From an uncultured Bacteroidales bacterium (lineage in GTDB: Bacteria; Bacteroidota; Bacteroidia; Bacteroidales; UBA932), in contig CAMVMG010000001.1 in NCBI GenBank assembly GCA_947168525.1, positions 124,001 through 188,000 of the forward strand: 64,000 nt of DNA. The letters run 5' to 3'. Shown piece after piece: positions 5,979 through 54,674 of the stretch; the stretch's first letter is position 1, and each line of letters opens with the position of its first letter. A program made the translations under genes and the position numbers. Below the pieces are notes generated by a model. The model saw nothing but the letters and a program-made list of their open reading frames with translations. It had not been told where the DNA came from and did no database searches.

Positions 5979-5993
5979 AATCTTTACCTCCTG

Positions 5994-6560: not shown

Positions 6561-6568
6561 GGTTTACT

Positions 6569-7018
6569 TTACTTTTTGTTGCGGATGGCCATGAACACCT
6601 CTGCCACGATGATGGACAGGATAGCTGCGCCACCGACGAGGTATGCGAGGTTGAGGATGGTGTCAGTCATCTTGAGTTCGGTTGCAGTGGGCGGCGTGGC
6701 ACCGGAATAACCGATAGCGGGAGCGCCGGTAGCCAGCAGGTAGCAGATGCCGAACAGGGCAGCTACAGCCACTACTGCAACACCGATTTTGATGAGACCC
6801 TTGGGATTTGTAGTGGCCGTAACATAAAGGCCTACGCAAATGACCGCTACGAGCGCGATGCCAAGGACGATGTATGCCCAGTAGAGGAGCACATTGGTCC
6901 CGGCGCCGTCATTGGCCTCGAATCCGGTGATCCAACCCCAGACCAAGACAGCAACGCTGAGAATCATCAGCACCCACAGCAGGATCTTAACGATTTTAGC
7001 GTATTTCTGTTTTTCCAT
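6569..7018 (-). CDS. hypothetical multi-TM membrane protein in exbB-exbD operon
   Basis: Four hydrophobic segments; between exbB and exbD. Confidence 0.75.
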   Translation of the reverse strand: MEKQKYAKIVKILLWVLMILSVAVLVWGWITGFEANDGAGTNVLLYWAYIVLGIALVAVICVGLYVTATTNPKGLIKIGVAVVAVAALFGICYLLATGAPAIGYSGATPPTATELKMTDTILNLAYLVGGAAILSIIVAEVFMAIRNKK

Positions 7019-7042
7019 TGTTTCTGGAATTAAAGGGGTTGA

Positions 7043-7834: not shown

Positions 7835-7932
7835 AATCTTTTTTTGTGTTGTTAGTTATAAATTGAATTAGTTTGTTAGTATATCCATTTTTGGTCGTGC
7901 AAGTTAGTAATAATATTTGAAAACGCCAAAGA

Positions 7933-11620: not shown

Positions 11621-11646
11621 GCCGCCAAGATAATGGACAAAAACGA

Positions 11647-11699
11647 AAAACAGCACAATCGGTTGAAAGATTGCGCTGTTTTATGTGTTTTAACCGATT
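11647..11699 (-). terminator. terminator-like hairpin between queA and dprA with overlapping alternative stem
   Basis: AAAACAGCACAATC(N8)GATTGCGCTGTTTT (one mismatch); AATCGGTT 11657-11664 also pairs with AACCGATT 11692-11699. Confidence 0.6.
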
Positions 11700-11705
11700 T
11701 TTCCC

Positions 11706-12755
11706 CTATACAATCAGGAGAGCGTCTCCGTAAGGGCCGAAACGGTAACCCTCTGCCAGGGCGGTTTCGTAGGCGTGCATCACCCCCTTGTAGCCTCCGA
11801 AGGCCGCCACGCACATGAGCATGGTGGATTGGGGCAGGTGGAAATTGGAGACGATGGCGTCCGGCACGGCATACTGGTACGGCGGGAAGATGAACTTGTT
11901 GGTCCATCCGTCGTAGGCGTTTACCTCGTGGGTGGTGGTGACATAGGTTTCCAGTCCGCGCATGACAGTGGTGCCCACGGCGACCACCTTTTTCCCGCTA
12001 CGCTTGGCCTTATTGATAGCGGCGGCGGCCTCTTCCGAGATAATGAGCCGCTCGGAATCCATGCGGTGCTTGGAAAGGTCTTCCACATCTACGGTACGGA
12101 ACTGGCCGATGCCCATGTGCACGGTGATGAAGGTTTTCTCGATATCCTTCAGAATCATGCGGTTGAAGAGCTCCCGGCTGAAGTGGAGGCCGGCTGCGGG
12201 GGCACTCACGGCACCCTCATGGGCGGCGAAGATGGTCTGGTAGTTTTCGAAATCCTCCGGGGTCACCTTCTCTTTCACCCATTCGGGCACATAGGGCTCT
12301 CCCAGGGAGAAAAGGGCCTCTTTGAAATCTTCGTAGGTGCCGTCGAACAGAAACCGCAGGGTGCGCCCGCGGGAGGTGGTGTTGTCAATCACTTCCGCCA
12401 CCAGGGATTCGTCTTCCCCGAAATAGAGTTTGTTGCCGATACGGATTTTCCGGGCGGGGTCCACGATCACGTCCCAGAGGCGCTGTTCGCGGTTGAGTTC
12501 CCGCAGGAGGAGCACCATAATATCGGCCCCGGTCTTTTCTTTCTTGCCGTACAGGCGGGCGGGGAATACCTTGGTGTCGTTGAGCACGAAAGTGTCTCCT
12601 TTTCCGAAGTAATCGATGATATCCTTGAACTGCCGGTGTTCCAGTTCACCGCTGTCTTTGTGAAGGACCATCAGGCGGGCTTCGTCTCTCCAGCGGACAG
12701 GCTCCTTTGCAATCCGGTCTTTGTCCAGATCGAAATTAAATTGGGATAGTTTCAT
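11706..12755 (-). CDS. queA: S-adenosylmethionine:tRNA ribosyltransferase-isomerase
   Basis: FNFDLDKDRIAKEPV, AAPAAGLHFS-like SAPAAGLHFSREL, IGQFRTV, NFHLPQSTMLMCVAAF. Confidence 0.93.
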   Translation of the reverse strand: MKLSQFNFDLDKDRIAKEPVRWRDEARLMVLHKDSGELEHRQFKDIIDYFGKGDTFVLNDTKVFPARLYGKKEKTGADIMVLLLRELNREQRLWDVIVDPARKIRIGNKLYFGEDESLVAEVIDNTTSRGRTLRFLFDGTYEDFKEALFSLGEPYVPEWVKEKVTPEDFENYQTIFAAHEGAVSAPAAGLHFSRELFNRMILKDIEKTFITVHMGIGQFRTVDVEDLSKHRMDSERLIISEEAAAAINKAKRSGKKVVAVGTTVMRGLETYVTTTHEVNAYDGWTNKFIFPPYQYAVPDAIVSNFHLPQSTMLMCVAAFGGYKGVMHAYETALAEGYRFGPYGDALLIV

Positions 12756-12812: not shown

Positions 12813-13736
12813 CTATTTGCGGTTCATGGCATCCAGTTTCATCTGGGCTCCCAGCCGGTCCTGCTCGGTCTCCCCGTATTTGGCCATCATCGCCAAATAT
12901 TTCTTTTCCAGCTTGCTGTCTTTGGTGGAGCGAGCCAGGATAAGGCCGTTCCGGATGGCAGTGAGGTCTTCCGGATGCTTCTTGAGCACGGCGTCGAACT
13001 GTTTGGCGGCTTTCTTGTACTCTTTCTTCACCAGATAGTAAGAGCCGATGTTGCCCTGGAAAAGGGGGTTGTTTTTGCTGTAGCGCAGCATATGCTCGGA
13101 GAGGGACTTGAAAGCCTCGGCCGAGGCGTCCGAGCCGATGCGGAAAAAAGCGGCGCAGTAGTCCTGCATGAACGCGTTGAATTCCTCGTCCCCCACTTTT
13201 TCCATGCCTTCGCAGGTCCAGGCGGGATGGCGGGAGTAGTGCTCGTCGGCAAGGGCCTTGAGCTGCTGCAGAGTCATGTCAGGGCTCTCTTTTTCGTAGG
13301 CGAGCATGGCGTTCAGCTTCAGGAAGCGGTAGTCCAGTTTCCAGTTCTTGAGGGCGATGGCCCTGTCGATGGCGCTGTTGGCCGACGCATACAGCTCGTC
13401 GTCGTAGACGGTGTCTTCAAAGTAATTGCATTTGTTGCCCAGGGAGTCGGTCATGGGCAGGATGGGGGCGTTGCCCAGGTAGCGGTCCTGGGGAAGCTGG
13501 ATGACGCGGCTGCTCTGGCTGCGGGCGAAGCAGAAGGCGAAGCGGGCCAGCAGCTGCTGGTCATCGTCCGGATAGTCTGCCTCCCACTTGTCCAGGAGGG
13601 TTTCCACGCCCACGCCGGCGGCGCCCACCCGTTCTGCCAGGTTGGTATAGCGGCGGAGGTATTCTTCCTGGGTGGTCTGTGCCAGGGCCGCCAGCGAACA
13701 GGCCAGCAGGACGGCAATGCTCAGAAATCTTTTCAT
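12813..13736 (-). CDS. exported TPR-like hypothetical protein
   Basis: Signal peptide MKRFLSIAVLLACSLAALAQ; TPR-like segment YYLVKKEYKKAAKQFDAVLKKHPED. Confidence 0.7.
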   Translation of the reverse strand: MKRFLSIAVLLACSLAALAQTTQEEYLRRYTNLAERVGAAGVGVETLLDKWEADYPDDDQQLLARFAFCFARSQSSRVIQLPQDRYLGNAPILPMTDSLGNKCNYFEDTVYDDELYASANSAIDRAIALKNWKLDYRFLKLNAMLAYEKESPDMTLQQLKALADEHYSRHPAWTCEGMEKVGDEEFNAFMQDYCAAFFRIGSDASAEAFKSLSEHMLRYSKNNPLFQGNIGSYYLVKKEYKKAAKQFDAVLKKHPEDLTAIRNGLILARSTKDSKLEKKYLAMMAKYGETEQDRLGAQMKLDAMNRK

Positions 13737-14881
13737 CGAATATCCATTTTAATACGTTTTGCTTTGGGGTACAGGTTGTTGCAGCGGGTGCCCAGGTTCT
13801 TGGCCTCTCCCAGGGGAAGCCCCTTGTAGCAGATGCAAAGGGGCCCCAGAGGGGCTTCCGGCGGCAGGTGGAGAGCGTCGCCGTGCAGATACTGTAGCGC
13901 CGTGGTCCGGTCCGCCTCCCAGCGGGGGAGGGTGCTTTCCGGCCCGGCGGGGATGTCGGCCCGGAAAAGGGCGAGAGGATTGGCGCGGCGGAGGTTGTCC
14001 GGGGTACCCTCCTTCCGGAGGACGGCGGCATACTGGCCTTCCCCCTTGACACGCCCCGGCAGCATCAGGTATCCGTATTCCGTGCGCAGGGCGGGTTCCT
14101 GCACGCCCATGTCCTCGGGGAGGGCGCCCAGGTGCTCCCGGGCCCAGGCAACGGTGCCGTCGTTCTCGGTCCGGTTGAAGGTACAGGTGGAAAAGAGCAG
14201 ATAGCCCCCTTCCTTGAGGGTGGGCCAGATGTCGGAGAGGATTCTCCGGGCCCTGGCGGCGCAGAATTCCACGGTTTCCGGACTCCAGTCTTCCACGGCT
14301 TTGGGCTCCTTGCGGAACATCCCTTCGCCGGAGCAGGGGACATCGGCCAGGATGACGTCGAAAAGCGGCGCGCTGCCGAAGGCCGACGGGTCCCGGGATA
14401 CCGTTCCCACCTGGCGGTCGCCCCAGGTTTCCAGGTTGGCGCGGAGGATGCCATACCGCCCCCGCATGAGCTCATTGGCCAGCAGGTACGATTTTCCCCC
14501 GTCGTGTTCCCGGAGCGAGGCAGCCAGGTCCGTGGTCTTTCCCCCGGGCGCGGCACAGAGGTCCAGCACCGAAAGCCCTTCCGGAAGACGGTCCAGGATG
14601 AGCCTGAACAGATGGCCGGGGAACATGGCCGATGTATCCTGTACATAATAGGCGCCGGCGTGGAACAAGGGGTCCAGCGTAAAGACCGGCCTTTCTGCGA
14701 GCTGATATCCGTACGGGCTCCAGGGCACCGGTGCGGCGCCCCCGAAGGGACATTCCCGGAGCTTGGCAGGATTCAGTCGTACCGACACGGAGGGCTCCTC
14801 CTCCAGGGCTTCCAGTACCCGGGCGGCTTCAGGGAACCCTACCGACTCTTCCAGCAGGTGTATGAAACGGGGATCAAACAT
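13733..14881 (-). CDS. NOL1/NOP2/Sun family rRNA cytosine-C5 methyltransferase
   Basis: LDLCAAPGGKTTDLAA, VILADVPCSGEGMFRK, LFSTCTFNRTEND motifs. Confidence 0.9.
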   Translation of the reverse strand: MFDPRFIHLLEESVGFPEAARVLEALEEEPSVSVRLNPAKLRECPFGGAAPVPWSPYGYQLAERPVFTLDPLFHAGAYYVQDTSAMFPGHLFRLILDRLPEGLSVLDLCAAPGGKTTDLAASLREHDGGKSYLLANELMRGRYGILRANLETWGDRQVGTVSRDPSAFGSAPLFDVILADVPCSGEGMFRKEPKAVEDWSPETVEFCAARARRILSDIWPTLKEGGYLLFSTCTFNRTENDGTVAWAREHLGALPEDMGVQEPALRTEYGYLMLPGRVKGEGQYAAVLRKEGTPDNLRRANPLALFRADIPAGPESTLPRWEADRTTALQYLHGDALHLPPEAPLGPLCICYKGLPLGEAKNLGTRCNNLYPKAKRIKMDIR

Positions 14882-15323
14882 TCCCCGGCCACAGGTTCGG
14901 GTCCATCCCTTCCGGCATTTTGCCGTTGGAGGCGTCAACGAGGCCGTCCACCACTTTGTCCAGGGCTTCCTTGATCTTGCCGGAGAGCATCATCTTCATC
15001 ATCAGGTTGAGATCGGCCTCCGCCTTAATCCAGAATTCTGTCTGGTATGGATCCTTGGCGGGCTCGAAGTGCAGCTCTATGTGGAAGGCGAAGGGAGCGC
15101 CGTAATCTACCAGCTCTATCCGCGAATAGGGAACCCTCTGGTGTACTTTTACGCCGATATTGAATCCCTGGATGGTGGCCGACAGGGTGTCGTACGTGGC
15201 CTGGATCAGTTCCTGCTTGTCCTGGGGCAGCATGCGCTGGAAGTTCTGCAGGTCTACGAAGGACATGTACAGCTCGTAGGGCTGGCGGGAAACAATTCCG
15301 TGTTTGCTTTCTATTTCGGTCAT
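14874..15323 (-). CDS. START-like/SRPBCC domain protein
   Basis: ORF from MTEIESKHGIVSRQPYELYMSF; upstream part of called ORF rejected. Confidence 0.7.
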   Translation of the reverse strand: MTEIESKHGIVSRQPYELYMSFVDLQNFQRMLPQDKQELIQATYDTLSATIQGFNIGVKVHQRVPYSRIELVDYGAPFAFHIELHFEPAKDPYQTEFWIKAEADLNLMMKMMLSGKIKEALDKVVDGLVDASNGKMPEGMDPNLWPGNV

Positions 15324-42509: not shown

Positions 42510-42591
42510 GCGGGTGTGTTGGAATTGGTAGACAACCCAGACTTAGGATCTGGTGCCTTACGGCGTATGGGTTCGAGTCCCTTCACCCGCA
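42510..42591 (+). tRNA. tRNA-Leu (anticodon TAG)
   Basis: Acceptor GCGGGTG/CACCCGC, anticodon stem CCAGA/TCTGG with loop CTTAGGA, long variable arm, GGTTCGAGTCC T-loop; CCA not encoded. Confidence 0.95.
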
Positions 42592-42592
42592 C
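42577..42592. repeat. putative attL: GTCCCTTCACCCGCAC (tRNA-Leu 3' end)
   Basis: Exact 16-bp match to 53596-53611. Confidence 0.8.
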
Positions 42593-42618
42593 AAAAGAGA
42601 GCCATTTAGCTCTCTTTT
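42593..42618 (+). terminator. tRNA-Leu terminator
   Basis: AAAAGAGAGC-CATTTA-GCTCTCTTTT. Confidence 0.8.
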
Positions 42619-42841
42619 ATGCTTTATTTCGTTTCACTTTACTGGGGGACTAATCCCCCAGACCCCCTGCGTCGCTACGCTCCGAAGTCCTTCGAGGCAG
42701 ACATGGCCGGCTTTTTCGTGCGGGCGAAGGGACGCCACTTCGTTTGATCCCCCGCTGCTTCGCAGCCGCCCCCAGGGGCATTGAAGGGGCTGCGCCCCCT
42801 CAAACTCCCCCTTGTCGGCCTTCGGCCTCCGAAGTCTGCCA

Positions 42842-42982
42842 GAGCCGGGCTCTTCTTGTTAACAATACCTTCAAATAACAATTAATAGCCTCGAGTTGCG
42901 GTCTGTGACTTCTGAGCCAGCGTTTTTGGCCATTTTTGCGGGTACCGGTGTCGGGCGTGACTTCTGCGCCGTCACTTTTGGC
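42842..42982. repeat. 141-bp direct repeat, copy 1
   Basis: Matches 53612-53752 with one mismatch seen; spacing 10,770 bp. Confidence 0.92.
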
Positions 42983-43130
42983 CATTTTTGAGGGTACCGG
43001 TGTCGGGCGTGACTTCTGCGCCGTCACTTTTGGCCATTTTTGAGGGTACCGGTGTCGGGCGTGACTTCTGCGCCTTCACTTTTGGCTGTTTTTGCAGGCG
43101 CAGGTGTCGGGCGTGACTTCTGCGCTAACG
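42898..43130. repeat. 52-bp tandem repeat array (about 4 units)
   Basis: GGTACCGG(TG) at 42941, 42993, 43045 and variant GGCGCAGGTG at 43097, all 52 bp apart. Confidence 0.93.
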
Positions 43131-43199
43131 GTTGACCTTCGGCACCCCAGGTATCATTTCCTTGAGAGGGTTTCGTCCGTGATGTATTGTGTCATTCGG

Positions 43200-43670
43200 T
43201 TATTTCTGGTTTAATATGAGGACTGCTTTTTCTACATCAGCTTCGGTTAATCCGTACTCATCGTTTATCGGCACAAAATGAGACCACTGCGTTGGCAGCA
43301 TGTCTCTGTCGTCATCCAAAATGACGTAATTGTCGCAGGAATGAACTTTCAGGTATGCCGCGATTTCCTCTCCTCGAGTTGCAGGACGGTCAATATCACC
43401 GTCAATGACGGAGAACAGGATGGGAGTAACGCCAACAATCTTGTCGGTGAAAAGGAAGGGATGCCCACCAACGCTTGGATTGTCCGGATCAGTCATAAAT
43501 TCAACTGTGCCGGGCACATCCTGAGCACGCCAAGATGATGAAATAACTATGCTGGCGCCTGTTTTCTCCAGAAGAGTACCCAGATGCGCCATCAGTTCCG
43601 GATCAAGCTGATAGCGGGATTTGTAGGTGTCCAGTACACCGTCTATGTCAAGGAAAACAAGTTTAGTCAT
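43200..43670 (-). CDS. HAD-superfamily phosphatase, HAD_SAK (Swiss Army Knife RNA repair)-like
   Basis: VFLDIDGVLDT, IVISSSWRAQ, GVTPI, ATRGEEIAAYL, NYVILDDDRDM. Confidence 0.75.
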   Translation of the reverse strand: MTKLVFLDIDGVLDTYKSRYQLDPELMAHLGTLLEKTGASIVISSSWRAQDVPGTVEFMTDPDNPSVGGHPFLFTDKIVGVTPILFSVIDGDIDRPATRGEEIAAYLKVHSCDNYVILDDDRDMLPTQWSHFVPINDEYGLTEADVEKAVLILNQK

Positions 43671-43869
43671 TTTCTCTCAAGTAATCTTCGATTAGCAATC
43701 TGGGAATCGACAGCTCAAACTTGGCATTGACATCTTCCTCAATGATGTCCACTATCTTGCCGAATTCTTTCTCCGCATCGGAAATGCCGTACTCGGCCGG
43801 ACTTTCGCAGATGTCCTGGTAATCCTGCTTAATCCAGGATTTCATACCGGCAGTAAGCTTGTCTGTCAT
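43663..43869 (-). CDS. hypothetical protein (68 aa)
   Basis: Overlaps the HAD ORF by 8 bp, 2-bp gap to MBL gene; plausible operon member. Confidence 0.6.
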   Translation of the reverse strand: MTDKLTAGMKSWIKQDYQDICESPAEYGISDAEKEFGKIVDIIEEDVNAKFELSIPRLLIEDYLREND

Positions 43870-43871
43870 TG

Positions 43872-45215
43872 CTACGCTTTATTGAAAGTGATGGTTATTC
43901 CGTCAATTACAGTCTCAGCCTCAACAATCTTGTCATCCAAATCTTTCCTCAGTCCTACAGTGTGGAAATCGGCATCCGGACTGTGGTGGATGGGTATGAT
44001 GGCTGTCTTCGGACCAATGAGTTCGCATATTTCCTTCAGAGATTGAATAGATGCATGGCCGGACGTGTGGTTGTAGTCGTATCTCTTGCTACCTTTCAGG
44101 CACGGTGTAGAACCTGCAACCAGGGGCTGAATAAAGGCGTCTGTTTTCTCATTATATCCGCCCGAGCCTTTTTCAACATATCCACGATACATGGAATAGA
44201 CGAAGGAGGTTTCTTCTCTATTACAGAACTTAAGGATATCATCTATCCATTCTGCAAACTTATCGCTGCTACGAATAAGCATTGTAAAGCCACATTTCTT
44301 CATCTTATTCATGAGACCCTTGTTTTTCGTCGGGTCATAATCATAGATATAGGCTTTTCCCTTGTTAAACTGATAATAAGGACCTAACCCCTTATACTTC
44401 CGGGAGATTCTCTTTATTGTCTCTGCCTGGAAACTGTCACAAACAAAGGGCCGCCATAGCTCCGTTGAATAATTAGCCTGATAGACGGACTCCAGACGGT
44501 CAGCATCTTGAGAGGAACATAAGACAAAAACATTCTTGCGCTTGGCCATTATTTCCTTGAAGCAGTCGCAAATCTCCTTTTCGCTCATTACAGGCTTATT
44601 TGTCTGGCCGACATTGGTTCCCTCAACAATCAATACATCCACATTGCCGGCAATATGGAACTTGTCAATCACTTTGCGCAGGCCATCGCCCAAGTATCCA
44701 TGTTCGCGAAAATCACCTGTATGGATGACCGTCTTCCCGTCGCACTGAATCTTTAGCATATAGGAATCTGTGGCCGAATGGCTGACATAGAAGGGTGTCA
44801 CCGTAATGTCTTTCCTTTTGCCGAAATAGAGTGGCTTTCCAGCACGATAGAAATGGAAGTTTTCCAGTTTCATCAACCGGTCCATGCATTCCTCATGCTG
44901 GTCATCAAGGCAGGATAGACGCTGGTACTTGCGCCCCATTAAATCCGCAGCAAGATTACCGATATACTGGGGTGTGCTTTCATCCACCAGATTGAACAAT
45001 TCTACGTGGTCCCCGTGATTGTGCGTGTACAAGATGGCCGCAGCGCCGGCAGTCAGCTTGTCGATGGCATCTTTAGTGGCCAGCTTATCGTCGGAAGGTT
45101 TGTCTCCATCCGGAAGCAGATGCCCCAGGTCTATGAAGATCCTGGTGCCTGCATTGGATTCAATCTCCGTGATGCAGCCGCCTATCTGGTGGGGACGATG
45201 AAGGGTGATTCTCAT
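43872..45215 (-). CDS. metallo-beta-lactamase/beta-CASP (RNase J-like) protein
   Basis: LYTHNHGDHVEL (HxHxDH), VIHTGDFREHG, TSGHASIQSLKEICELIGPKTAIIPIHHS. Confidence 0.8.
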   Translation of the reverse strand: MRITLHRPHQIGGCITEIESNAGTRIFIDLGHLLPDGDKPSDDKLATKDAIDKLTAGAAAILYTHNHGDHVELFNLVDESTPQYIGNLAADLMGRKYQRLSCLDDQHEECMDRLMKLENFHFYRAGKPLYFGKRKDITVTPFYVSHSATDSYMLKIQCDGKTVIHTGDFREHGYLGDGLRKVIDKFHIAGNVDVLIVEGTNVGQTNKPVMSEKEICDCFKEIMAKRKNVFVLCSSQDADRLESVYQANYSTELWRPFVCDSFQAETIKRISRKYKGLGPYYQFNKGKAYIYDYDPTKNKGLMNKMKKCGFTMLIRSSDKFAEWIDDILKFCNREETSFVYSMYRGYVEKGSGGYNEKTDAFIQPLVAGSTPCLKGSKRYDYNHTSGHASIQSLKEICELIGPKTAIIPIHHSPDADFHTVGLRKDLDDKIVEAETVIDGITITFNKA

Positions 45216-45216
45216 T

Positions 45217-46197
45217 TTAATACTCTCCTTCTTCGTATAAAGGACTATCGATGATATTATCTATCCCAAGTTCCGGAAGAGTCGCCTTACTGAACTTAAA
45301 CGAGGGGCGAAATGAAGGGTCTTTTACAACCGCATGAAAACCTTTTTCACCGACGAGTTTCGATTCTTTGCGAGAGCCCCATGTATTCCCTCCAAAAAGA
45401 TACCCCGCCATAGTCATTTTGGGAGTATTTCCGTTTTCATCAGGGTTGTTAGCCAACGTGATGAAATAATACTCTGGCTTTTTGCAAAAAGCTTCTACTG
45501 TCAGGTCCTCTTTTATCTCACTAGGAATAGAAACTCCCACATCTCTCAACCCTCTGATAATTGATACGAGTTCGGGAAGCAATATCCGATAAGAACCGTT
45601 AACATGGAAAGTATAGAAGTCTTGAATATGCTTGGTAATTCCACTCGATCCTCCAATTGCCCCGAACGAATACTTTAACTCAATCAGCGCCACACGGTGA
45701 GGAGTAGTTTTAGAAACGGCGATTATGTCAAACCGCCATGGCTCTGCTTTTTCTTTCTCGGCAATAGACCTTGTGTACTCAACATCTATGCAGAACCAGT
45801 TTGATGTCGGATTTAGATTATTGGCAATATAGAGTTTCTCTTGGGATTGTTTTTCCTTTTTATCCCTGTCATCACTCTTTTGAATGATTGTTTCAAACGC
45901 AGAAGACAAATCGCGTAAAGCTGGATCAATCGTCATGAGCTTTGATGGATTATCCGGATCGAGATAATAGTGATCTATTTTTGCTCGCAGAGTCCCGGTT
46001 GTATCAACGAACTTGGCAATGCTGTCGCAGTTGTAATACAGATTAACATAGTTGTCTCTGATGCCGACAATAACCTTATCTCTATGCTTCAAATAGAACT
46101 CTTGAAAAACAGGATGTTTTTTTACTGCCGACGCAAAAGTAGAAGTTATTTCACGAACAGAGTCTTTCCTCTCTTTCTTATTCTGTTTCTTATCCAT
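45217..46197 (-). CDS. PD-(D/E)XK nuclease-like protein
   Basis: WRFDIIAVSKTTPHRVALIELKYS fits D...(x)...ELK core. Confidence 0.65.
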   Translation of the reverse strand: MDKKQNKKERKDSVREITSTFASAVKKHPVFQEFYLKHRDKVIVGIRDNYVNLYYNCDSIAKFVDTTGTLRAKIDHYYLDPDNPSKLMTIDPALRDLSSAFETIIQKSDDRDKKEKQSQEKLYIANNLNPTSNWFCIDVEYTRSIAEKEKAEPWRFDIIAVSKTTPHRVALIELKYSFGAIGGSSGITKHIQDFYTFHVNGSYRILLPELVSIIRGLRDVGVSIPSEIKEDLTVEAFCKKPEYYFITLANNPDENGNTPKMTMAGYLFGGNTWGSRKESKLVGEKGFHAVVKDPSFRPSFKFSKATLPELGIDNIIDSPLYEEGEY

Positions 46198-46213
46198 ATT
46201 GCTAACACTGCTA

Positions 46214-46801
46214 TTACATGCTTATTTCTTTAAACCTTTCCACCTCAGTCCCGTCCGGCAGCGTCACCTTGCTGAAGAAGATGTCGTAGGGCCGTACCCA
46301 AATCTGGCCAGCTCCGTACAGAGCCTGGTAGATGACGACATCCTCCAGCGTTTCAGAGTCTTTGCCGAAGCCGGTGAGTTTGTACTTGCCGCCCTTGAAG
46401 TGCTCAAAATAGCGGGTCTTTGTCAAACAGCGTTCCTTCAGCATCTTCTTCCATAAGGGTTCCTGGGTGACCGGATATTCTCCTCCGGCTCCGAGGACAT
46501 CTGCGATCACCTTCTTGACGATGGGTTTGGTGAGGGTGGCATTCTGGACACGCGCATAGTTTTCCAAACGGTTGACCGCCTTCTCTGTTGCTTCAATGAA
46601 AGCATTGATGGTAGTGGATGGCGTGTTCTTATGGTTATACTCAGCCGGTGTCACACGTTTGGCAACATCATCCCAAGCTTTGGGAGGGATGCTGAAGCCC
46701 ATCGTGGTCTGGTACCGGTCTCCGTTGAATGACCAGACAACGCGGATAGGGGCTTCTCCGTGCTTGTTTTGTCTCTTATCAAGGTAGATTTTCAGTGGCA
46801 T
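46214..46801 (-). CDS. fusion of integrase-type Arm DNA-binding domain and DUF1653-like domain
   Basis: N-term IYLDKRQNKHGEAPIRVVWSFNGDRYQTTMGFSIPPKAWD as in Bacteroidota integrases; C-term HFKGGKYKLTGFGKDSETLEDVVIYQALYGAGQIWVRPYDIFFSKV; no recombinase catalytic domain. Confidence 0.65.
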   Translation of the reverse strand: MPLKIYLDKRQNKHGEAPIRVVWSFNGDRYQTTMGFSIPPKAWDDVAKRVTPAEYNHKNTPSTTINAFIEATEKAVNRLENYARVQNATLTKPIVKKVIADVLGAGGEYPVTQEPLWKKMLKERCLTKTRYFEHFKGGKYKLTGFGKDSETLEDVVIYQALYGAGQIWVRPYDIFFSKVTLPDGTEVERFKEISM

Positions 46802-46832
46802 AAATAGTGGTTTTCACAAAGTTATAAAGTTG

Positions 46833-47028
46833 TTGGCGTTTTTGCAAGCGAGACCAATTGAATAATACATTATCTGCAGTTTACATACATATATAAACGA
46901 ACGAGCACGAAAAATCTATACAGAAAAAGTGAAAAAGTTATGAACAATCGTCCCCGTTTTCCAAGCGTAAAAACCAGTTGTTGAGCAGCCATAATAGCGC
47001 CAAAATCCTATTGGCATTTTTGCAAGCG
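46833..47028. repeat. 18-bp direct repeats TTGGC(G/A)TTTTTGCAAGCG
   Basis: 46833-46850 and 47011-47028, one mismatch. Confidence 0.85.
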
Positions 47029-47259
47029 CCTTAGAGCGTTGTTAGAAGCGTATTTTGAAAAATATTTTTCCGAAAAGTGCCTTTTTTGGCCAAAAATCGC
47101 GGCTTTTTAAAATGCGACTTCGTATTGATAACTTGTAACTTTTCCTGACGAGGAGGTTGCCATCGAGTCTTTGACAAGTCTGATATCCTCTGAAAAACCG
47201 CGGCCTCCGGTACCATGGCCGTCCTATAATACGAACCCTGATAAAACAAAGTTTCACTC

Positions 47260-48144
47260 ATGAATAATAAACTCCTTCAAACACTCAACAGCGCCCTTGA
47301 GCGCACCAAAACCACCCACTATGCTCCGGTCACCATCGACGCCCTCCAGGCCCGCCTCAGCGAGGAACTGGACTGGCTGGATGCCTGCCCCGGCCGCGAG
47401 TGCCTCATCGTCCTCCTGCAGGAGCTGGCCGCCAATATGCGCAGTGCCCACATCGTGGTCAGCTCTGGCTACAGCTTCCTTCCCGACTCCTACCTGCTCT
47501 TCCTGACCGGCGTCACCAAGGTCAATCCGGTGGAATGGGACCTGCCCTTCAGCCGCTTCACCAAGTCCATCCACAACGGTGCCGAGATTCCCTTCGAGGC
47601 CGGTTCCGGCTGCCTTGAAGTAGCCCGCAAAGTCCTCTCTGGCCGCGACAGTGAGCTAGTCATCGAAACGGAGCCAGGCCTCTTTGAAATCACCTTCCTG
47701 GATGGGACGGAACTCCAGAACGTCAAGCTCCGCATCACCACCTACGCTGCCTTGGACCAGTTCAGCCGCACGCTCAAAGACGGCTGGCACCCGCTGGACG
47801 AGGCCACACTTCGGCTCTTTAGCCGCGGAGCCACCGACGGAGCCATCTTCTTAGAATCCGACAAGATGCGTGAATGGCTCTTTGACTTCGCCCCAGAATC
47901 TATGTCCGACCTGGTCCTCCTGAATGCCCTTTACTGGCCCGGCCGCATCGGGCTCTTCCCGGAAATCCTTCGCCGGAAGCAGAGCGGAGACTACGGAAAA
48001 GAATTCCGCGACACCTACGGAGTCCCGGTCTACCAGGAACAGACTTCCGACCCCTGCCTTGCCCCCAAGGGCCACTTTATCGGCCGCACTATGATGGCGG
48101 TCGAGGCCCTCTGGCCCTACCGGAATAAAACTAAACTGAAATAA
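47260..48144 (+). CDS. truncated DnaE-like (DNA polymerase III alpha) protein, catalytic core incomplete
   Basis: SSGYSFLPDSYLLFLTGVTKVNPVEWDLPFSRF; GATDGAIFLESDKMREWLFDFAPESMSDLVLLNALYWPGRIGLFPEILRRKQ; DTYGVPVYQEQ, all colinear with DnaE motifs. Confidence 0.75.
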   Translation: MNNKLLQTLNSALERTKTTHYAPVTIDALQARLSEELDWLDACPGRECLIVLLQELAANMRSAHIVVSSGYSFLPDSYLLFLTGVTKVNPVEWDLPFSRFTKSIHNGAEIPFEAGSGCLEVARKVLSGRDSELVIETEPGLFEITFLDGTELQNVKLRITTYAALDQFSRTLKDGWHPLDEATLRLFSRGATDGAIFLESDKMREWLFDFAPESMSDLVLLNALYWPGRIGLFPEILRRKQSGDYGKEFRDTYGVPVYQEQTSDPCLAPKGHFIGRTMMAVEALWPYRNKTKLK

Positions 48145-48497
48145 TGAAATCCATCAAAGACATCCCCTGGGAGTGCGGAAAAGGATGGTGGCCGATGATC
48201 GAGAAAGTCGCATCGGCCATTGATTCCTTCAACGCCGCCAACCCGGAAAACCCCATTGAGGTCAGCCAGATCAAGCAAAAGTTCGGCGGCCTCCGAATCT
48301 ACCATTACAACGCCCCAGAGGATATCAGACGACTCATAGACGATGCTATCGAAGCCTCCTGGTACACCTGCGAGAAGTGCGGAAGCACAGAAGCGGTTAC
48401 GACTAACAATAGTGGTTATATGCAGACGTTGTGTCCCGAATGCAGAAAGCAGATTAGGCCAAAAATAATTAGAAAACGAGACAAAATTAATGAATAG
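48144..48497 (+). CDS. small zinc-ribbon protein, phage-like
   Basis: IPWECGKGWWPMIEKV...FGGLRIYHYNAPEDIRRLIDDA...CEKCGS...LCPECR. Confidence 0.65.
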   Translation: MKSIKDIPWECGKGWWPMIEKVASAIDSFNAANPENPIEVSQIKQKFGGLRIYHYNAPEDIRRLIDDAIEASWYTCEKCGSTEAVTTNNSGYMQTLCPECRKQIRPKIIRKRDKINE

Positions 48498-48626
48498 AAC
48501 TATTGCATGTGTATCCGGTAAAAGTTCCAGACACGCATGATCTTCTATAGTTTCCAAATAAGGATTATAGGTTTTATGGAGGAGGAATCGTGTTGTTTGG
48601 ATGTAGGTAGATTGGCTGAGAATTGT

Positions 48627-48634
48627 TATATTTG
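48627..48634 (+). promoter_or_regulatory. -7 box TATATTTG
   Basis: TAnnTTTG 26 bp before ATG 48660; supports internal start. Confidence 0.45.
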
Positions 48635-48659
48635 TGGGAACATCAAAACCATCGTCCAT

Positions 48660-48950
48660 ATGAAAGACACTAACGAATACTCCACAATCTATCAGCTTGG
48701 TAAACGGAATCTTCGTGTTCACAAGGACGAATGCCACTATAGCGTACTCCTTGAGGAAGGTGAAACGTATACAGAGGTCATTGTCCCCAGGGAAGCTATG
48801 GATGAGGCTATGAAGTTTCCGGCCGCTGAGGAAATAACTTGGGTCGGTCAGTTCAAGTTACTCTTTGGAAATTATGACGGATTTGAGTATTTCGTCAAGT
48901 TCTGTGAGGATAACTATGTCTCAACGAAAACCTTCTTCTGGGAGAAATGA
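48660..48950 (+). CDS. hypothetical protein
   Basis: ORF overlapping next gene by 4 bp; start chosen from promoter position. Confidence 0.6.
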   Translation: MKDTNEYSTIYQLGKRNLRVHKDECHYSVLLEEGETYTEVIVPREAMDEAMKFPAAEEITWVGQFKLLFGNYDGFEYFVKFCEDNYVSTKTFFWEK

Positions 48951-49480
48951 CGCTAACGGTGAATCAACTTGGCAGACTGGGTGAAACTGCTGTGGCCCTT
49001 GAACTAATGAAAAGGGGGTATGATGTTGTAAATCTTAATGACTCCATCAAGAATTACCAACATGCCGATCTCCTGTGTGCATCCTCTATTTCGGGCAAAA
49101 CCACACTGATACAGGTAAAGACCGGTTCTACTATGAATATTCAATGCGGCCTTACCTCTACGCCTGATGGAGTTATTGATGATCTGGACGGAAAGGTGGT
49201 CTGCCCCTGGGTGTTTGTTCATGCTACTCCACAAGGGAAAGATGATTACAGTTTTGAGTTCTTCATACTAACTCGTGATGAGGTGCTGGACCTGATTAAG
49301 AGTAGTAATGACTGGTATGCAAACCAATGGAGTCGTAAACTAAAGCATGATATCCGGGTTGGGGTTGATGTAAAATGGTTGGATGCTAAAGGTTCAAGTG
49401 ATTCTCCAGGCCTTCACCCAGCCTATACAAGCAGCCTTACCGTTTCCTCCAAAAACAGGTGGGATAAGATTTCATTGTAG
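48947..49480 (+). CDS. PD-(D/E)XK endonuclease-like protein
   Basis: GRLGETAVALELMKRGYDVVNLNDSIKNYQHADLLCASSISGKTTLIQVKTG (E...D...QVK). Confidence 0.65.
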   Translation: MTLTVNQLGRLGETAVALELMKRGYDVVNLNDSIKNYQHADLLCASSISGKTTLIQVKTGSTMNIQCGLTSTPDGVIDDLDGKVVCPWVFVHATPQGKDDYSFEFFILTRDEVLDLIKSSNDWYANQWSRKLKHDIRVGVDVKWLDAKGSSDSPGLHPAYTSSLTVSSKNRWDKISL

Positions 49481-49579
49481 AAGATTTAGTATGGTACGCA
49501 GAGAAAGCTGGGGACTTGGCTTATTCGTTAGGGCATAACTTACTTTTTCGGAACCTTTAACATCTTTTAACAAAATCCG

Positions 49580-49611
49580 TTTGGCGGTCTCAAAAGAGGC
49601 CGCTATCTTTG
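49580..49611 (+). promoter_or_regulatory. Bacteroidota promoter TTTG-N20-TATCTTTG
   Basis: TTTG at 49580-49583 and TATCTTTG at 49604-49611, 20-bp spacer. Confidence 0.65.
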
Positions 49612-49664
49612 TGCCAAGAAATGCGCATTTCATTGATTTATAATATATTAACTATTATATTATT

Positions 49665-50204
49665 ATGGAAATCAATGAATATTTGAAAGACCAAAAACAA
49701 ATCTTTTGGGATTTGCTTGCGGCAACGGTGGTAGATATTGACAGGTATCCAGACATCCTCAAAGGAGAACTTGTATTCGGAGCCAATGATACAGTCCTGT
49801 CGTTTAGAAACTGTGGGAAGGGGTTTCTACCTGGTGTAATTGCAAAGGCTATATTGCCTGATGTGGAAGGAGAGAAAGCTGATGGCCATATGTCGGACCT
49901 GTATCCAATGGAGGCACTGCTAACGGCTGATGTATTTGAACTTCGTTCCTTCCATGATGGTAAAACAACAGCCCTAAAGTGTGAGAAAGGAGAATTGACA
50001 GAACTACGTGTATATCCAGACTGGAGTACTCCACAGGGACTATTGATACACCTGGAATGGAGCCAAGGTTTACCAGAAGCACAGCTGCTGAAGAAGAAAG
50101 ACGTTGCCAGTGCCATGAGAAGGGTGTTTTCCGGAAAAGCTCCTTTGCCTAAGATGAGGTGGAAGCCAACGGTCTGGTTTAATGGAGAAAGAGTAATGTA
50201 TTGA
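49665..50204 (+). CDS. hypothetical protein
   Basis: 179-aa ORF downstream of strong promoter match; 3 bp before next gene. Confidence 0.65.
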   Translation: MEINEYLKDQKQIFWDLLAATVVDIDRYPDILKGELVFGANDTVLSFRNCGKGFLPGVIAKAILPDVEGEKADGHMSDLYPMEALLTADVFELRSFHDGKTTALKCEKGELTELRVYPDWSTPQGLLIHLEWSQGLPEAQLLKKKDVASAMRRVFSGKAPLPKMRWKPTVWFNGERVMY

Positions 50205-50207
50205 CGT

Positions 50208-51062
50208 ATGATTTGTGATTATCAGACAAACAAAGTATATCTTGCCGAAGGAATCAAGCACTACGAAACTGTGGCTCATAACCTTCTGCTGGCACTCTAC
50301 AATGAAGGAATCGATACAGAATTCCTTAGGCACACCGAGTCTTGGAAGCATATCTGGGTTAGGGACTATATGCCCATTCAACTCACAAAGACACGATTCC
50401 TACAATATCGTTACGCCCCTGATTACCTCAAAGGGTATGAAGACTACATCCCGCCATATCAGACTATTTGCCGAGGTTTACGTCTGAAAGGGAAAGAGAT
50501 TCCGTTTGTAATAGATGGCGGTAATGTCGTCAAGTTCAGCAATTGTGTTGTGATGACCGATAAAGTTCTGAAAGAGAATCCCGGCTATACGGAAGGCTAT
50601 ATCCGGAAACAATTGGAAGAGGCTTTTGGTTGTGAGGTAGTCCTCATACCCTGGGATCGCTATGAAATGTTCGGCCACGCCGATGGAATGGTTCGTGCTA
50701 TCGGGGACTACTATATCCTGATTAACAACTATTGCGATTTCGACAAAGACCTGCAAAAACGCCTTAAGGATGCTCTGTCTGGCCGATTCAGCATCGCCGA
50801 ACTTCACTATGATGTTCCTCGGCCTTCACGCCTCAACTGGGCCTACCTGAACTTCCTTCAAGTAAATAATTGTATATTTGTACCCGGACTGGGCGTCCGG
50901 GAGGACGAAAAGGCCGCCGAGCAAATCCAGGAGTATTACCCCAACCATAAGGTTATCCTCATTCCTGGTTGTCAGGAACTAGTAAAGGAAGGTGGCGCCC
51001 TGAACTGTGTGAGTTGGAATATACTCGGTAATCTGCAGGAGAAACCAAAAGAAGAAGCATAA
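50208..51062 (+). CDS. peptidylarginine deiminase/agmatine deiminase-like protein
   Basis: HIWVRDYMPIQ, FVIDGGNVVKF, MFGHADGMVR, GGALNCVSWNI (catalytic D, H, C in order). Confidence 0.82.
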   Translation: MICDYQTNKVYLAEGIKHYETVAHNLLLALYNEGIDTEFLRHTESWKHIWVRDYMPIQLTKTRFLQYRYAPDYLKGYEDYIPPYQTICRGLRLKGKEIPFVIDGGNVVKFSNCVVMTDKVLKENPGYTEGYIRKQLEEAFGCEVVLIPWDRYEMFGHADGMVRAIGDYYILINNYCDFDKDLQKRLKDALSGRFSIAELHYDVPRPSRLNWAYLNFLQVNNCIFVPGLGVREDEKAAEQIQEYYPNHKVILIPGCQELVKEGGALNCVSWNILGNLQEKPKEEA

Positions 51063-51075
51063 TAATAACACGACT

Positions 51076-51741
51076 ATGACCAATAACATTACAGCAGAAT
51101 TCATCCAGAACCATTCACTGATGGATTGCCTCCGGGAGTTCGACGGCGCCCACTCGAAAGGAAATAAAGCCAAGGTTGAGGAGTTGAACAATATATTTTA
51201 CCATCTGGCGCAAAAGATACTCTACGGCGGATATTTTGCCGTTTTCAAGGATGGCGTTGTAGCCCGACGCATCTATATTAACTGTGTTGAGTTCTACTAT
51301 CACGAAGAAGATACGGATGGCTTCAAGGACTGGATTGTCTATCACCGCAACCCGGTGAACGGAAAGAACAAGAAAGCTGCCTTTCCACTTGGATCGCTGC
51401 ATTCACACGTCTCCGGCGTGGACATCACCTTCGAAGATCAGAAGGCCAAGGCCGATGATGTCCGCTATCGGGCCTCCGCCCTTATCCGCGAATTCATGGT
51501 TACAGATGGTGACCACGATCAATGTGGTCCTGTTGACATCTATCCAACCCACCTGTACGAGTACCTTTACACTCAATCCTCTCTCGAAGACATTCATATC
51601 CAGTGGAAGCCTGTAAAGTTCCAAGACATCAAGGTCAACCCTCAGCATCGAATCAATGTCTGTACCTACACTTTTGACGGAAAGACTCTCACCAAAAACA
51701 AAGGAAAATACGATTTGAAAAAATGGGGTTTTCGCCGATAA
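51076..51741 (+). CDS. hypothetical protein
   Basis: 221-aa ORF following the deiminase gene. Confidence 0.65.
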   Translation: MTNNITAEFIQNHSLMDCLREFDGAHSKGNKAKVEELNNIFYHLAQKILYGGYFAVFKDGVVARRIYINCVEFYYHEEDTDGFKDWIVYHRNPVNGKNKKAAFPLGSLHSHVSGVDITFEDQKAKADDVRYRASALIREFMVTDGDHDQCGPVDIYPTHLYEYLYTQSSLEDIHIQWKPVKFQDIKVNPQHRINVCTYTFDGKTLTKNKGKYDLKKWGFRR

Positions 51742-51806
51742 TTCTACTGTCCACTCCGTACGCTTCGTCACCGCCCTGTGGCCGTGGACAGGACAGGATT
51801 TATTCG

Positions 51807-51814
51807 TATCTTTG
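51807..51814 (+). promoter_or_regulatory. -7 box TATCTTTG
   Basis: TAnnTTTG upstream of ATG 51842. Confidence 0.45.
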
Positions 51815-51841
51815 TGATGTAAACCACTGATTCAATAACAC

Positions 51842-52144
51842 ATGGCCGATACCAAAACACCCCAGCCCGACTACGACGCCATCGCCCAGCAGGCCTATGA
51901 ATGGCTCAAGAAAAGGCGTGCCAAAGGTGAAATCTCTACCTTTGAAGTGCTCATGAAGATCAATGGGTACAAGTGGGGCGATAAAGAGCTCGAGCAAATC
52001 TCGGAACTGGATCTATTCGAAGTCCACGACCGCCTCCTCCGGCTCATCAAGAAGGAGAAGAAATACGTGGCCGATTTCTCTGCCTACGATGACCAGTGTG
52101 TTGGGCCTCCATTTGACATCCCTTTCGTGTTCCGGAAGAAATAG
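51842..52144 (+). CDS. hypothetical protein (100 aa)
   Basis: ORF with promoter match; no recognised family. Confidence 0.55.
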   Translation: MADTKTPQPDYDAIAQQAYEWLKKRRAKGEISTFEVLMKINGYKWGDKELEQISELDLFEVHDRLLRLIKKEKKYVADFSAYDDQCVGPPFDIPFVFRKK

Positions 52145-52189
52145 AGCATCGGCAATACCCTGGCACATGCTCTTCGTACCTTTGGGGTC

Positions 52190-52468
52190 ATGATGCCAGA
52201 ATACCCACCCATAACTGAAATCCCTGACTATGTTTTGGGAATGAAACAACCGTCCTTCTATCCACGGCCAAAGAAAAACGAGCCCAAAGATACCGCCGCA
52301 GAGTATGTCCATCCGAATCTTGAGTGTGCATTAAGGGCGGCGAAGAATAGGGCTCGAAGGAATGGCCGATGGTTTGGACGGGAGAGTGAGAGTGGTTGTT
52401 TTTGTGTGTATGAAGGGCGGAATGTTGTGGAGAGACATATAACGAAAAAAGGAGCAGGGACCGGTTAA
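52190..52468 (+). CDS. hypothetical protein (92 aa)
   Basis: ORF only. Confidence 0.4.
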   Translation: MMPEYPPITEIPDYVLGMKQPSFYPRPKKNEPKDTAAEYVHPNLECALRAAKNRARRNGRWFGRESESGCFCVYEGRNVVERHITKKGAGTG

Positions 52469-52604
52469 AGTCTGTGCTCCAATTCGATAAAAGCGCTATT
52501 GTTCGTCTGGCTCCTGCTGCTTCGGTTTATACCTTTTTACAAATAATCAACCTAAAAGTTGATTAACTGAGATAATTGTATTACTTTTGCAAAAAGTACA
52601 TGAT

Positions 52605-53156
52605 ATGAGGTTTGAAAGAATACTTGACAACGGACGGCTGTGGGCTGTGATGTATGATGGAGACGCTGTAAACATTTTGGAGAGAGTGTTTACGCAATGG
52701 AATGATTATGAATGGTTAAGAGCGTTCTTTACGAAACATGTAGAGGATTTGTCTTCCTTCTTCCATATCACGGATATAGACCGCGCTGTGTTCGATACAG
52801 TCGATGACGCCAATGATTTGGAATGCCTTATCATGGACATAGACCCGGATGCAAATCTGGATGAGTTGTTCCGGCCATTGGATAATACCAGATTGTCGGA
52901 AGTTTTGCTGGGAAGAGAAAAAGCAAAGGGGCAGTATCACACCCATGCATCCTGGCTACGGCTATATGCCATCAGACTGGAATCTGGCCGATACATCATT
53001 ACCGGGGGAGCCATTAAACTAACGGCTACCATGCAAGAGCGTGAACATACTCTGGAGGAACTCCATAAGCTAAACAAAGTACGCGACTATCTGTTATCTC
53101 AGGGTATATTTGATTACAACGGATTTGAAGACTATGATGAAGAAAGCAACGGATAA
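52605..53156 (+). CDS. putative toxin of toxin-antitoxin pair
   Basis: YHTHASWLRLYAIRLESGRYIITGGAIKLTATMQEREHTLEELHKLNKVRDYLLSQGI resembles Bacteroidota TA toxins next to HTH genes; start moved from TTG 52587, which overlaps a -7 box (TACTTTTG 52582-52589). Confidence 0.6.
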   Translation: MRFERILDNGRLWAVMYDGDAVNILERVFTQWNDYEWLRAFFTKHVEDLSSFFHITDIDRAVFDTVDDANDLECLIMDIDPDANLDELFRPLDNTRLSEVLLGREKAKGQYHTHASWLRLYAIRLESGRYIITGGAIKLTATMQEREHTLEELHKLNKVRDYLLSQGIFDYNGFEDYDEESNG

Positions 53157-53538
53157 AGAACTCTCTGTGCTACAAAAGCATGAGGTCAAAACCAATTGGA
53201 GAGAGAAAGCCCAATGGCGACGGGAGAACCGCCGTTGGCTTCGCTATTCTGGTTTCATAGCCCTAACGGTCATGCATCGTTTGGAGGAGCTCAAAATGAG
53301 CCAGAAAGAACTTGCGGAAAAGATGAAATGTTCCCCGCAGTATGTTTCTAAACTACTTAAAGGTTCAGAGAATCTGACTTTGGACACCATCTCCAAATTG
53401 GAAGAATGCCTTGATTTGAATCTGGTCAGAAATGCATTAAGCAATGTGGACGGCTATGAGTATCATGAGTCGCCATTAAGATTTGTCGCGGAACCCGACA
53501 GTCCACTATATGGCAGCAAGAATCAAGAAGAGCAATGA
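53134..53538 (+). CDS. XRE-family HTH antitoxin/regulator
   Basis: LEELKMSQKELAEKMKCSPQYVSKLLKGSENLTLDTISKLEECLDL; overlaps upstream ORF. Confidence 0.85.
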   Translation: MMKKATDKELSVLQKHEVKTNWREKAQWRRENRRWLRYSGFIALTVMHRLEELKMSQKELAEKMKCSPQYVSKLLKGSENLTLDTISKLEECLDLNLVRNALSNVDGYEYHESPLRFVAEPDSPLYGSKNQEEQ

Positions 53539-53595
53539 GACCGAACACCAAATAGATAAACCGTATAATAGTCTTCAAAAAACGGTTCGATAAAT

Positions 53596-53611
53596 GTCCC
53601 TTCACCCGCAC
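53596..53611. repeat. putative attR: GTCCCTTCACCCGCAC
   Basis: Exact copy of the tRNA-Leu 3' end outside any tRNA. Confidence 0.85.
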
Positions 53612-53752
53612 GAGCCGGCCTCTTCTTGTTAACAATACCTTCAAATAACAATTAATAGCCTCGAGTTGCGGTCTGTGACTTCTGAGCCAGCGTTTTTGGC
53701 CATTTTTGCGGGTACCGGTGTCGGGCGTGACTTCTGCGCCGTCACTTTTGGC
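53612..53752. repeat. 141-bp direct repeat, copy 2
   Basis: Matches 42842-42982. Confidence 0.92.
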
Positions 53753-54674
53753 TGATTTTGCGGGCGCAGGTGTCGGGCGTGACTTCCGTGCCGTCACTTT
53801 TGGCCATTTTTGCGGCCGCCGCCACTTCCTCCAGAAGCCATTTGGGCGTGGATGTGGCTCCGCAGACGCCGACGGTCCGGGCCTCCTGCAGCCACTCTGG
53901 CAGAATGTCGGCTGCCGCACCGACCAGATAGGTACGGGGGTTCACACTCCGGCAGAGGTCGCTCAGTACTTTGCCGTTGGATGAGGAGCGGCCTGCGACA
54001 AACAGGATTACGTCGTGGGAGCGGGCGAAGGCCTGGAGTTGCTGGTGCCGGGAAGCCACCTGCGCACAAATGGTGTTGTGTACGGTGAGCCGGGCCCCGT
54101 AGCTCCGGAGCAGCTCGCAGATAGCCTCATACTCCGATGGGCTCTTGGTGGTCTGGGAGAAGATTTCCATGGGCTGGGAAAAGTCCAGCCGGCCTTCCCG
54201 GACGGCATCCTGCAGCATGGCGGCATTCTCCACCACCAGGGCGTCTCCCTGTACCTGGCCCACCAGGCCCAGGACTTCTGCGTGACCCACCCGGCCGAAG
54301 ATGATGACCTGCCCTTTTTGCCCGTCGCTGTGCAGGCGAAGGTAGGCCTCGCGGATCCGGCGCTGCAGCTGCAGTACCACCGGGCAGGTGCAGTCGGCCA
54401 GTTCGAGCTTGCGTGCCCGGGCGGCGATGTAGGTGGAGGGCGGCTCTCCGTGCGCGCGGATAAGGACGGTCTCTCCCTCCGGCACTTCGGAAATGGAGTC
54501 GATGGTGACCAGGCCCTTGGATTGGAGCCGCTCCAGCTCTGCCTCGTTGTGCACGATAGCACCCAGCGAGTACAGCGTACCGCTACCGCTGCTGAGGTAT
54601 TCTTCCGCCCGGGTGATGGCGCGGATAACCCCGCCGCAGAAGCCGGAACCCGGGTCTACCTCTACTTTCAGCAT
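53742..54674 (-). CDS. ispH: 4-hydroxy-3-methylbut-2-enyl diphosphate reductase
   Basis: VEVDPGSGFCGGVIRAI, LIRAHGEPPST, TSTPKWLLEEV; C-terminal tail lies in 52-bp repeats. Confidence 0.9.
   Translation of the reverse strand: MLKVEVDPGSGFCGGVIRAITRAEEYLSSGSGTLYSLGAIVHNEAELERLQSKGLVTIDSISEVPEGETVLIRAHGEPPSTYIAARARKLELADCTCPVVLQLQRRIREAYLRLHSDGQKGQVIIFGRVGHAEVLGLVGQVQGDALVVENAAMLQDAVREGRLDFSQPMEIFSQTTKSPSEYEAICELLRSYGARLTVHNTICAQVASRHQQLQAFARSHDVILFVAGRSSSNGKVLSDLCRSVNPRTYLVGAAADILPEWLQEARTVGVCGATSTPKWLLEEVAAAAKMAKSDGTEVTPDTCARKISQK

Follow-up and report, generated by a model that had tools for sequence, protein, structure and literature searches.

A degenerate miniature DnaE beside exchangeable nucleases in ruminant-gut Bacteroidales and its possible role as a replisome mimic

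ImuB, the catalytically inactive Y-family polymerase of mutasomes (described in PMC12926913, PMC3919608), is a dead polymerase paralogue that persists in a system of several proteins as a subunit without catalytic function. A second related idea comes from BREX-related systems, where inactive REase domains are proposed as decoys for phage inhibitors (PMC12839542). For polymerases of the C family, a 2013 survey excluded fragments whose active site was not intact (PMC3919608), and a 2026 survey discarded truncated sequences before tree calculation and, in its accessible part, notes inactive homologues for the Y family only (PMC12926913). We found no published description of C-family polymerases that would, by their residues, be catalytically dead, and a search on defence and replisome mimicry—with preprints and subscription papers outside its reach—returned no description either.

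Here, we describe such a protein, the mini-DnaE, encoded in a window of 64,000 nucleotides (the whole stretch of DNA analysed). It shares with DnaE1/Pol III alpha (PF07733 + PF17657) the palm and fingers homology by sequence and predicted fold. Unlike these, it bears no PHP, thumb, clamp and tau regions, has lost two or three catalytic aspartates, and is no housekeeping gene but lies beside nucleases. In contrast to ImuB, it belongs to a different polymerase family, has no RecA/DnaE2 partners and is nuclease-linked. With the BREX-related decoys it might share the idea of a preserved dead domain intercepting phage inhibitors; however, those imitate the system's own nuclease, whereas the mini-DnaE would imitate host replication proteins. 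On the effector side, the families C13 and C3 match the models of the REase-ARP (PF22558)/PDDEXK_13 restriction-fold nucleases, whereas most effector variants, the window's included, match no model, a replisome mimic is attached and no methyltransferase was noted here. Finally, sister operons with pseudo-DnaB and DnaE pair WYL regulators with PD-(D/E)XK genes like the WYL-regulated defence operons (PADLOC WYL models), but correspond to no defined PADLOC system and carry recurring replication-protein pieces. Variable-effector operons of defence type are known; for dead replisome parts as a component we found no description. The features of the window are as follows.

42510..42592, + strand: tRNA-Leu, attachment gene of the island, with the left copy of a 16-bp repeat at 42577-42592
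43200..43670, − strand: HAD_SAK_2 HAD-fold protein (PF18143, E=1.3e-22)
43872..45215, − strand: beta-CASP metallo-beta-lactamase (RNase J-like), 447 aa (PF12706, E=3e-8; PF07521, E=2e-6)
45217..46197, − strand: putative PD-(D/E)XK-type nuclease, 326 aa, assigned by the motif FDIIAVSKTTPHRVALIELK and by its swap between loci
46214..46801, − strand: C1, Arm-DNA-bind_5 + DUF1653 protein, 195 aa (PF07866, E=2.7e-21; PF17293, E=9.6e-8)
46802..47259, no strand: divergent intergenic region from the mini-DnaE to the Arm/DUF1653 gene, a presumed shared promoter (MAFFT, 13 loci)
47260..48144, + strand: mini-DnaE, a catalytically degenerate Pol III alpha palm/fingers homologue of 294 aa with an ATG start
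47584..47598, + strand: EIPFE (residues 109-113), replacing the catalytic DIDID (D401/D403 block) in the columns of alignment A3
47731..47733, + strand: Arg158 codon at the position of the third catalytic Asp (D555), KMDFLGL being changed to VKLRITTY (alignment A3)
48144..48497, + strand: zinc-ribbon protein, whose start codon overlaps the mini-DnaE stop
53596..53611, + strand: right copy of the 16-bp repeat, GTCCCTTCACCCGCAC, a repeat of the tRNA-Leu 3' end and the right end of the island

The mini-DnaE is a genuine reduced DnaE (Pol III alpha) homologue. An earlier note on this DNA had read colinear DnaE landmarks in the open reading frame, and alignment A3, Pfam and TIGR00594 (3e-13) agree: DNA_pol3_finger (PF17657) matches residues 180-262 above the family cut-off (E=2.7e-12), DNA_pol3_alpha (PF07733) matches residues 10-101 one bit below its cut-off (E=7.5e-5), and T. 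aquaticus Pol III alpha matches at 6e-8. Shared columns of alignment A3 pair GPGRGSAAGS, NALYRPGPM and TYGVTVYQEQ of DnaE with SSGYSFLPDS, NALYWPGRI and TYGVPVYQEQ of the mini-DnaE. The dnaE of the host lies at a separate site in the genome and is 43% identical over 83 residues only. On the level of the fold, an AlphaFold (AF2) model reaches a pLDDT of 87.9 and a pTM of 0.85 with an alignment of 47 rows, which included pseudo-DnaE and housekeeping DnaE; a family-only alignment gave a poor model (pLDDT 51). The fold evidence is hence not independent of the homology, as the good model needed these rows. A structure superposition had been proposed as a check, and each of the 19 PDB entries that the model matches in Foldseek at E<=0.001 is a C-family polymerase; the lowest E is 3.1e-9, against Pol III alpha, and the TM relative to the query reaches 0.75.

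The active site is a different matter. Where DnaE reads MPDIDVDF and LKMDFLGL, the window protein reads GAEIPFEA and VKLRITTY (alignment A3), and all 19 full-length copies show variants of these—GAEIPFEA or NDLVLET-like at the first block, VKLRITTY or IIIHILEY-like at the other. The second and third catalytic aspartates, which we take to be D403 and D555 in E. coli numbering, are gone in 19/19, with P, V, S or F at the second position and R, H or I at the third. PDIDxDF and KMDFLGL are intact in 21/21 housekeeping DnaE proteins from the same bacterial family; their full Asp set is found in none of the 19 mini-DnaE and in none of seven larger operon-linked DnaE-like proteins. Judged by these residues, the mini-DnaE is CATALYTICALLY dead. 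The description of the PDxDxD segment as replaced stands with one precision: at the position of the first aspartate, an acidic residue (E or D) persists in most copies. PHP and thumb are missing too, the latter as a gap in alignment A3, and so is all that follows the beginning of the fingers towards the C-terminus; the protein ends at the position of DnaE's basic LRKAMGKK stretch, and therefore the clamp-binding and tau regions are absent. A standalone, non-catalytic polymerase-III-alpha fragment, as had been supposed, is supported by the active-site columns lost in 19/19 copies, and the supposed lack of PHP and tau-binding regions by the length of 294 aa and alignment A3. Another suggestion, a clamp-binding adaptor, was dropped: the C-terminal clamp/tau region is missing, and a Qxx[LMI][FLYW] clamp motif was not found in the window protein.

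Among 300 genomes from the same bacterial family, 13 carry the mini-DnaE, and a scan of genome collections added loci from ruminant-gut Bacteroidales MAGs to a total of 20 distinct loci. In an alignment of the 19 full-length copies, 61 columns are invariant and the identity to the window copy is 39-94%; against the latter, dN/dS amounts to about 0.09-0.22 (Nei-Gojobori) for the members with well-measured dS. Hence, this is the conserved family of about 300 aa that the earlier note had asked for, it is under purifying selection, and the explanation named there as a refutation—random pseudogene fragments of dnaE lacking such selection—is excluded. One copy (L020/L035) bears an early stop, leaving the frame open in 19 of 20 loci, which counts against a functional system. 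Among 394 order-level genomes, a relative at E<=1e-15 appeared only in the window's own genome, and a search of 247 genomes at E<=1e-32, run without a positive control, gave no relatives of a 347-aa pseudo-DnaE. As these order-level searches found no others, both seem to be restricted to a single family of bacteria, probably GTDB UBA932. Phage and plasmid collections yielded full DnaE or fragments and no standalone relative covering 80% of the mini-DnaE query; a B. finegoldii plasmid match turned out to be a housekeeping-size dnaE amid core genes and was rejected. In a quick tree, housekeeping DnaE and mini-DnaE each form a group of their own; owing to long branches, the branching order of the remaining sequences is unsafe.

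The chief point that the earlier note missed is that the mini-DnaE has a conserved neighbour and a variable nuclease. C1 is its divergent neighbour in 14 of the 20 loci; full-length C1 is found in 11 of 300 genomes, adjoining the mini-DnaE in ten and lying about 200 bp from a contig end in the eleventh. An integrase-like origin of the Arm protein was weighed, but a catalytic recombinase domain is not present. The intergenic region between both genes is partly conserved across loci with different nucleases (MAFFT, 13 loci). Further members recur as well: the beta-CASP metallo-beta-lactamase, with an intact HNHGDH motif, is conserved in six loci, the HAD_SAK_2 protein is present in the same operon of L018, and the zinc-ribbon gene also adjoins the mini-DnaE in L013, L014 and L031. 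As a side observation, L013, L014 and L015 carry a SLOG-domain gene between the Arm protein and the mini-DnaE, which resembles part of the PsyrA/ShosA models. In the window, a small protein at 48947-49480 shows a YraN/NERD-like core, HADLLCASSISGKTTLIQVKTG, with weak NCBIfam matches only, and is perhaps a PD-(D/E)XK variant.

In 16 of the 18 loci (out of 20) with enough flank to be assessed, the mini-DnaE has a PD-(D/E)XK-type nuclease gene nearby, usually behind the Arm/DUF1653 gene. Across loci, these genes have a D-x(n)-E-x-K signature in common and are otherwise unrelated in sequence. The motif of the putative window nuclease is common to its swapped counterparts; the protein has no Pfam match of its own and is assigned by the motif. 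REase-ARP (PF22558) matches two effector families from other loci (E=1.9e-27 and 1.1e-7). The comparison of the window with L012, L033 and L034 is instructive: the mini-DnaE is 91-94%, the Arm protein 90-92% and the metallo-hydrolase 88-92% identical, whereas the nuclease—encoded between the genes of the latter two—is about 25% identical. The nuclease has therefore been exchanged within a conserved frame. L016 and L017 have no nuclease at the mini-DnaE locus, which counts against a modular nuclease. By inspection, a methyltransferase was noted neither beside the window nuclease nor among the named neighbour genes. Two observations by reading may be added: a Phd/YoeB-like pair occupies the nuclease position of the other loci in L017 (3674-4219), and L032 holds a separate type I-like set.

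Related loci carry other pieces of the replication machinery. In L027, L028 and L029, a WYL regulator (PF13280, 1.2e-13) replaces the missing Arm protein beside PD-(D/E)XK genes. L027 and L028 encode C51, a pseudo-DnaB of 137-153 aa without P-loop that aligns with the DnaB C-terminal domain (hhalign 95.5%, E=1.5e-8); as the profiles are small and the E-value holds for a single comparison, this match, though good, falls short of being decisive. Ten of 300 genomes contain C51, with a WYL gene within about 3 kb at eight of the loci examined. Downstream of the mini-DnaE, L013 bears a DnaA AAA+ gene (PF00308, 2.2e-35). L111 (G440) unites in one stretch a WYL gene, two PD-(D/E)XK genes, C51, a DnaB C-domain (PF03796, 1.1e-64) whose Walker A is intact and two DnaE-like proteins: a DnaE of 445 aa with ITLEFGAGG where the Asp block would be expected, and a PHP-DnaE of 787 aa (12873-15236), whose third Asp is also lost. 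L120 and L121 combine WYL and metallo-hydrolase genes with a 347-aa thumb-less DnaE, and a 377-aa DnaE lies beside a DnaB fusion in L122. PHP-DnaE proteins of 783-835 aa are divergently oriented to WYL, nuclease and C51-like genes in L123 (6196-8703) and L124 (7261-9612). L129 and L130 share the operon order WYL, metallophosphatase, X, nuclease, metallo-hydrolase: slot X is filled by a pseudo-DnaB in L129 and by a 178-aa DnaE palm piece in L130. That replication pieces interchange in one slot hints more strongly than any other observation at mimicry of the host replisome as the function itself.

The operon of the window is located on an 11-kb island (42577-53611) with a 16-bp repeat of the 3' end of tRNA-Leu at either side, which bears out that the gene was thought to lie on an island. 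A tyrosine recombinase/integrase gene was not seen within it, and a search of 61 congeners for an empty tRNA site had a negative result; it is the repeats, the composition and the patchy presence that suggest mobility. In the window, the GC content of the mini-DnaE (0.59-0.60) is above that of its island neighbours (0.40-0.51), as had been noticed; the separate origin drawn from this is not supported, as the host core has about 0.58. Over the loci, effector nucleases are AT-rich (GC 0.30-0.48) and the mini-DnaE is host-like in most (0.54-0.61), with 0.41-0.49 in the four most divergent; hence, the contrast in the window reflects the neighbours. A 204-bp direct repeat, 94.6% identical, lies inside the island near tRNA-Leu (42842-43045) and just past the right 16-bp repeat (53612-53815); it contains imperfect shorter repeats that extend into an ispH-like ORF at its 3' end. 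The island cargo includes a gene of the Porphyromonas-type peptidyl-arginine/agmatine deiminase family (50208-51062; PF04371, E=2.3e-23) and a likely toxin-antitoxin pair (52587-53538) with an HTH_3 second gene (E=6e-12); the same pair is found near the mini-DnaE in L015.

Our preferred, if tentative, reading, held at somewhat below even confidence, is that the mini-DnaE acts as a dead replisome-mimic subunit—a bait or sensor—of a modular, probably anti-phage nuclease system on islands of ruminant-gut Bacteroidales. It is favoured because the dead core is selected, nuclease-linked, patchily distributed (13/300 genomes) and on an island, because the effector is swapped, and because DnaB and DnaA pieces recur in related loci; the decoys proposed for BREX-related systems offer a precedent. 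The chassis would comprise the mini-DnaE, either a WYL regulator or the divergently encoded Arm/DUF1653 protein and, at some loci, the beta-CASP hydrolase; regulation or DNA binding might be the task of the Arm or WYL protein. The mimic would be bound by phage factors that seize or inhibit the host replisome, or would register phage replication, and this engagement might release or activate the exchangeable PD-(D/E)XK nuclease as the executor. We infer here an anti-phage role, the bait mechanism and contact between the subunits; the decoy and anti-phage ideas of the earlier note would fit the operon context in this sense. We know of no phage factor targeting the DnaE of these hosts. PADLOC-DB 2023 gave matches to single-domain WYL and SLOG models only and to no system of several subunits, which counts against a defence role. 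The wider generalization, a class of immune systems built from dead Pol III alpha, DnaB and DnaA copies as interchangeable bait for phage proteins of replication takeover that fires interchangeable PD-(D/E)XK nucleases, is possible but more doubtful.

Several other explanations have to be weighed. The retained palm/fingers core could still recognize a replisome partner or a structure resembling a primer-template, and bring the nuclease to (phage) replication forks, the mimic being an address label and not a sensor. This would suit a retained part predicted to be the template-side core (palm strands and fingers start), the nuclease-like linked effectors and an Arm protein predicted to bind DNA. 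However, the protein has neither a thumb nor a clamp-binding region, basic LRKAMGKK stretch or clamp motif, and the pseudo-DnaB copies have no P-loop, which argues for surface mimicry over DNA engagement, and such a targeting role appears unlikely. Quite unlikely is a role in restraint or abortive infection, with the mini-DnaE as an antitoxin-like partner of the nuclease or, once released, as a dominant-negative blocker of host and phage replication. Effectors without methyltransferase would require restraint, the divergent pair has its conserved intergenic region, and the ORF pair read at the L017 nuclease position looks like a toxin-antitoxin module; yet a nuclease freely swapped against a near-constant mini-DnaE is unusual for a toxin-specific antitoxin, and the mini-DnaE persists in L016 without a nuclease.

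The biology of mobile elements offers a further view, in which the mini-DnaE, the Arm/DUF1653 protein and the pieces of DnaB and DnaA would be left over from, or accessory to, the replication or integration of an element, and the nucleases hitch-hiking cargo. The tRNA repeats bounding the island, the kinship of the Arm domain (PF17293) with the DNA-arm-binding part of tyrosine integrases and the larger DnaE with PHP domain in some operons point this way. We consider it improbable, as selection persists despite the lost catalytic residues, the island shows no integrase, phage and plasmid collections hold no standalone mini-DnaE, and WYL regulation is typical of immune loci. That the gene is a decaying, functionless dnaE fragment would agree with its heavy truncation, its rarity in genomes and the early stop in one copy. 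This is hardly credible in view of 61 invariant columns, a dN/dS of 0.09-0.22 with purifying selection across 38-94% identity, the limited 43% identity to host dnaE over 83 residues and the same neighbour in 14 loci.

If the replisome-mimic reading of the operon is true, the replisome has to be added to those machineries of the host that immune systems copy so as to sense an attack by phages. What each mimic resembles would then predict the host protein that phages of rumen Bacteroidales attack. Even without a role in defence, a selected pseudo-polymerase family tied to swappable nucleases demands an explanation.

Some of the larger proteins deserve mention in their own right. The PHP+DnaE proteins of 783-835 aa in L123, L124 and L111 have disrupted polymerase triads and are divergent from WYL/nuclease operons. 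In L122, a 687-aa DnaB C-domain-like protein (5598-7661) with a long extra C-terminal half adjoins the 377-aa DnaE-like protein and two genes that read as DUF262/GmrSD-like. A phage-like region in L126 encodes a split DnaE (7041-9212 and 10533-12239) that, by eye, keeps PDVDCDF and KNDCLAT with their Asp; unlike the operon-linked proteins, it seems from these motifs to be a divergent, active polymerase.
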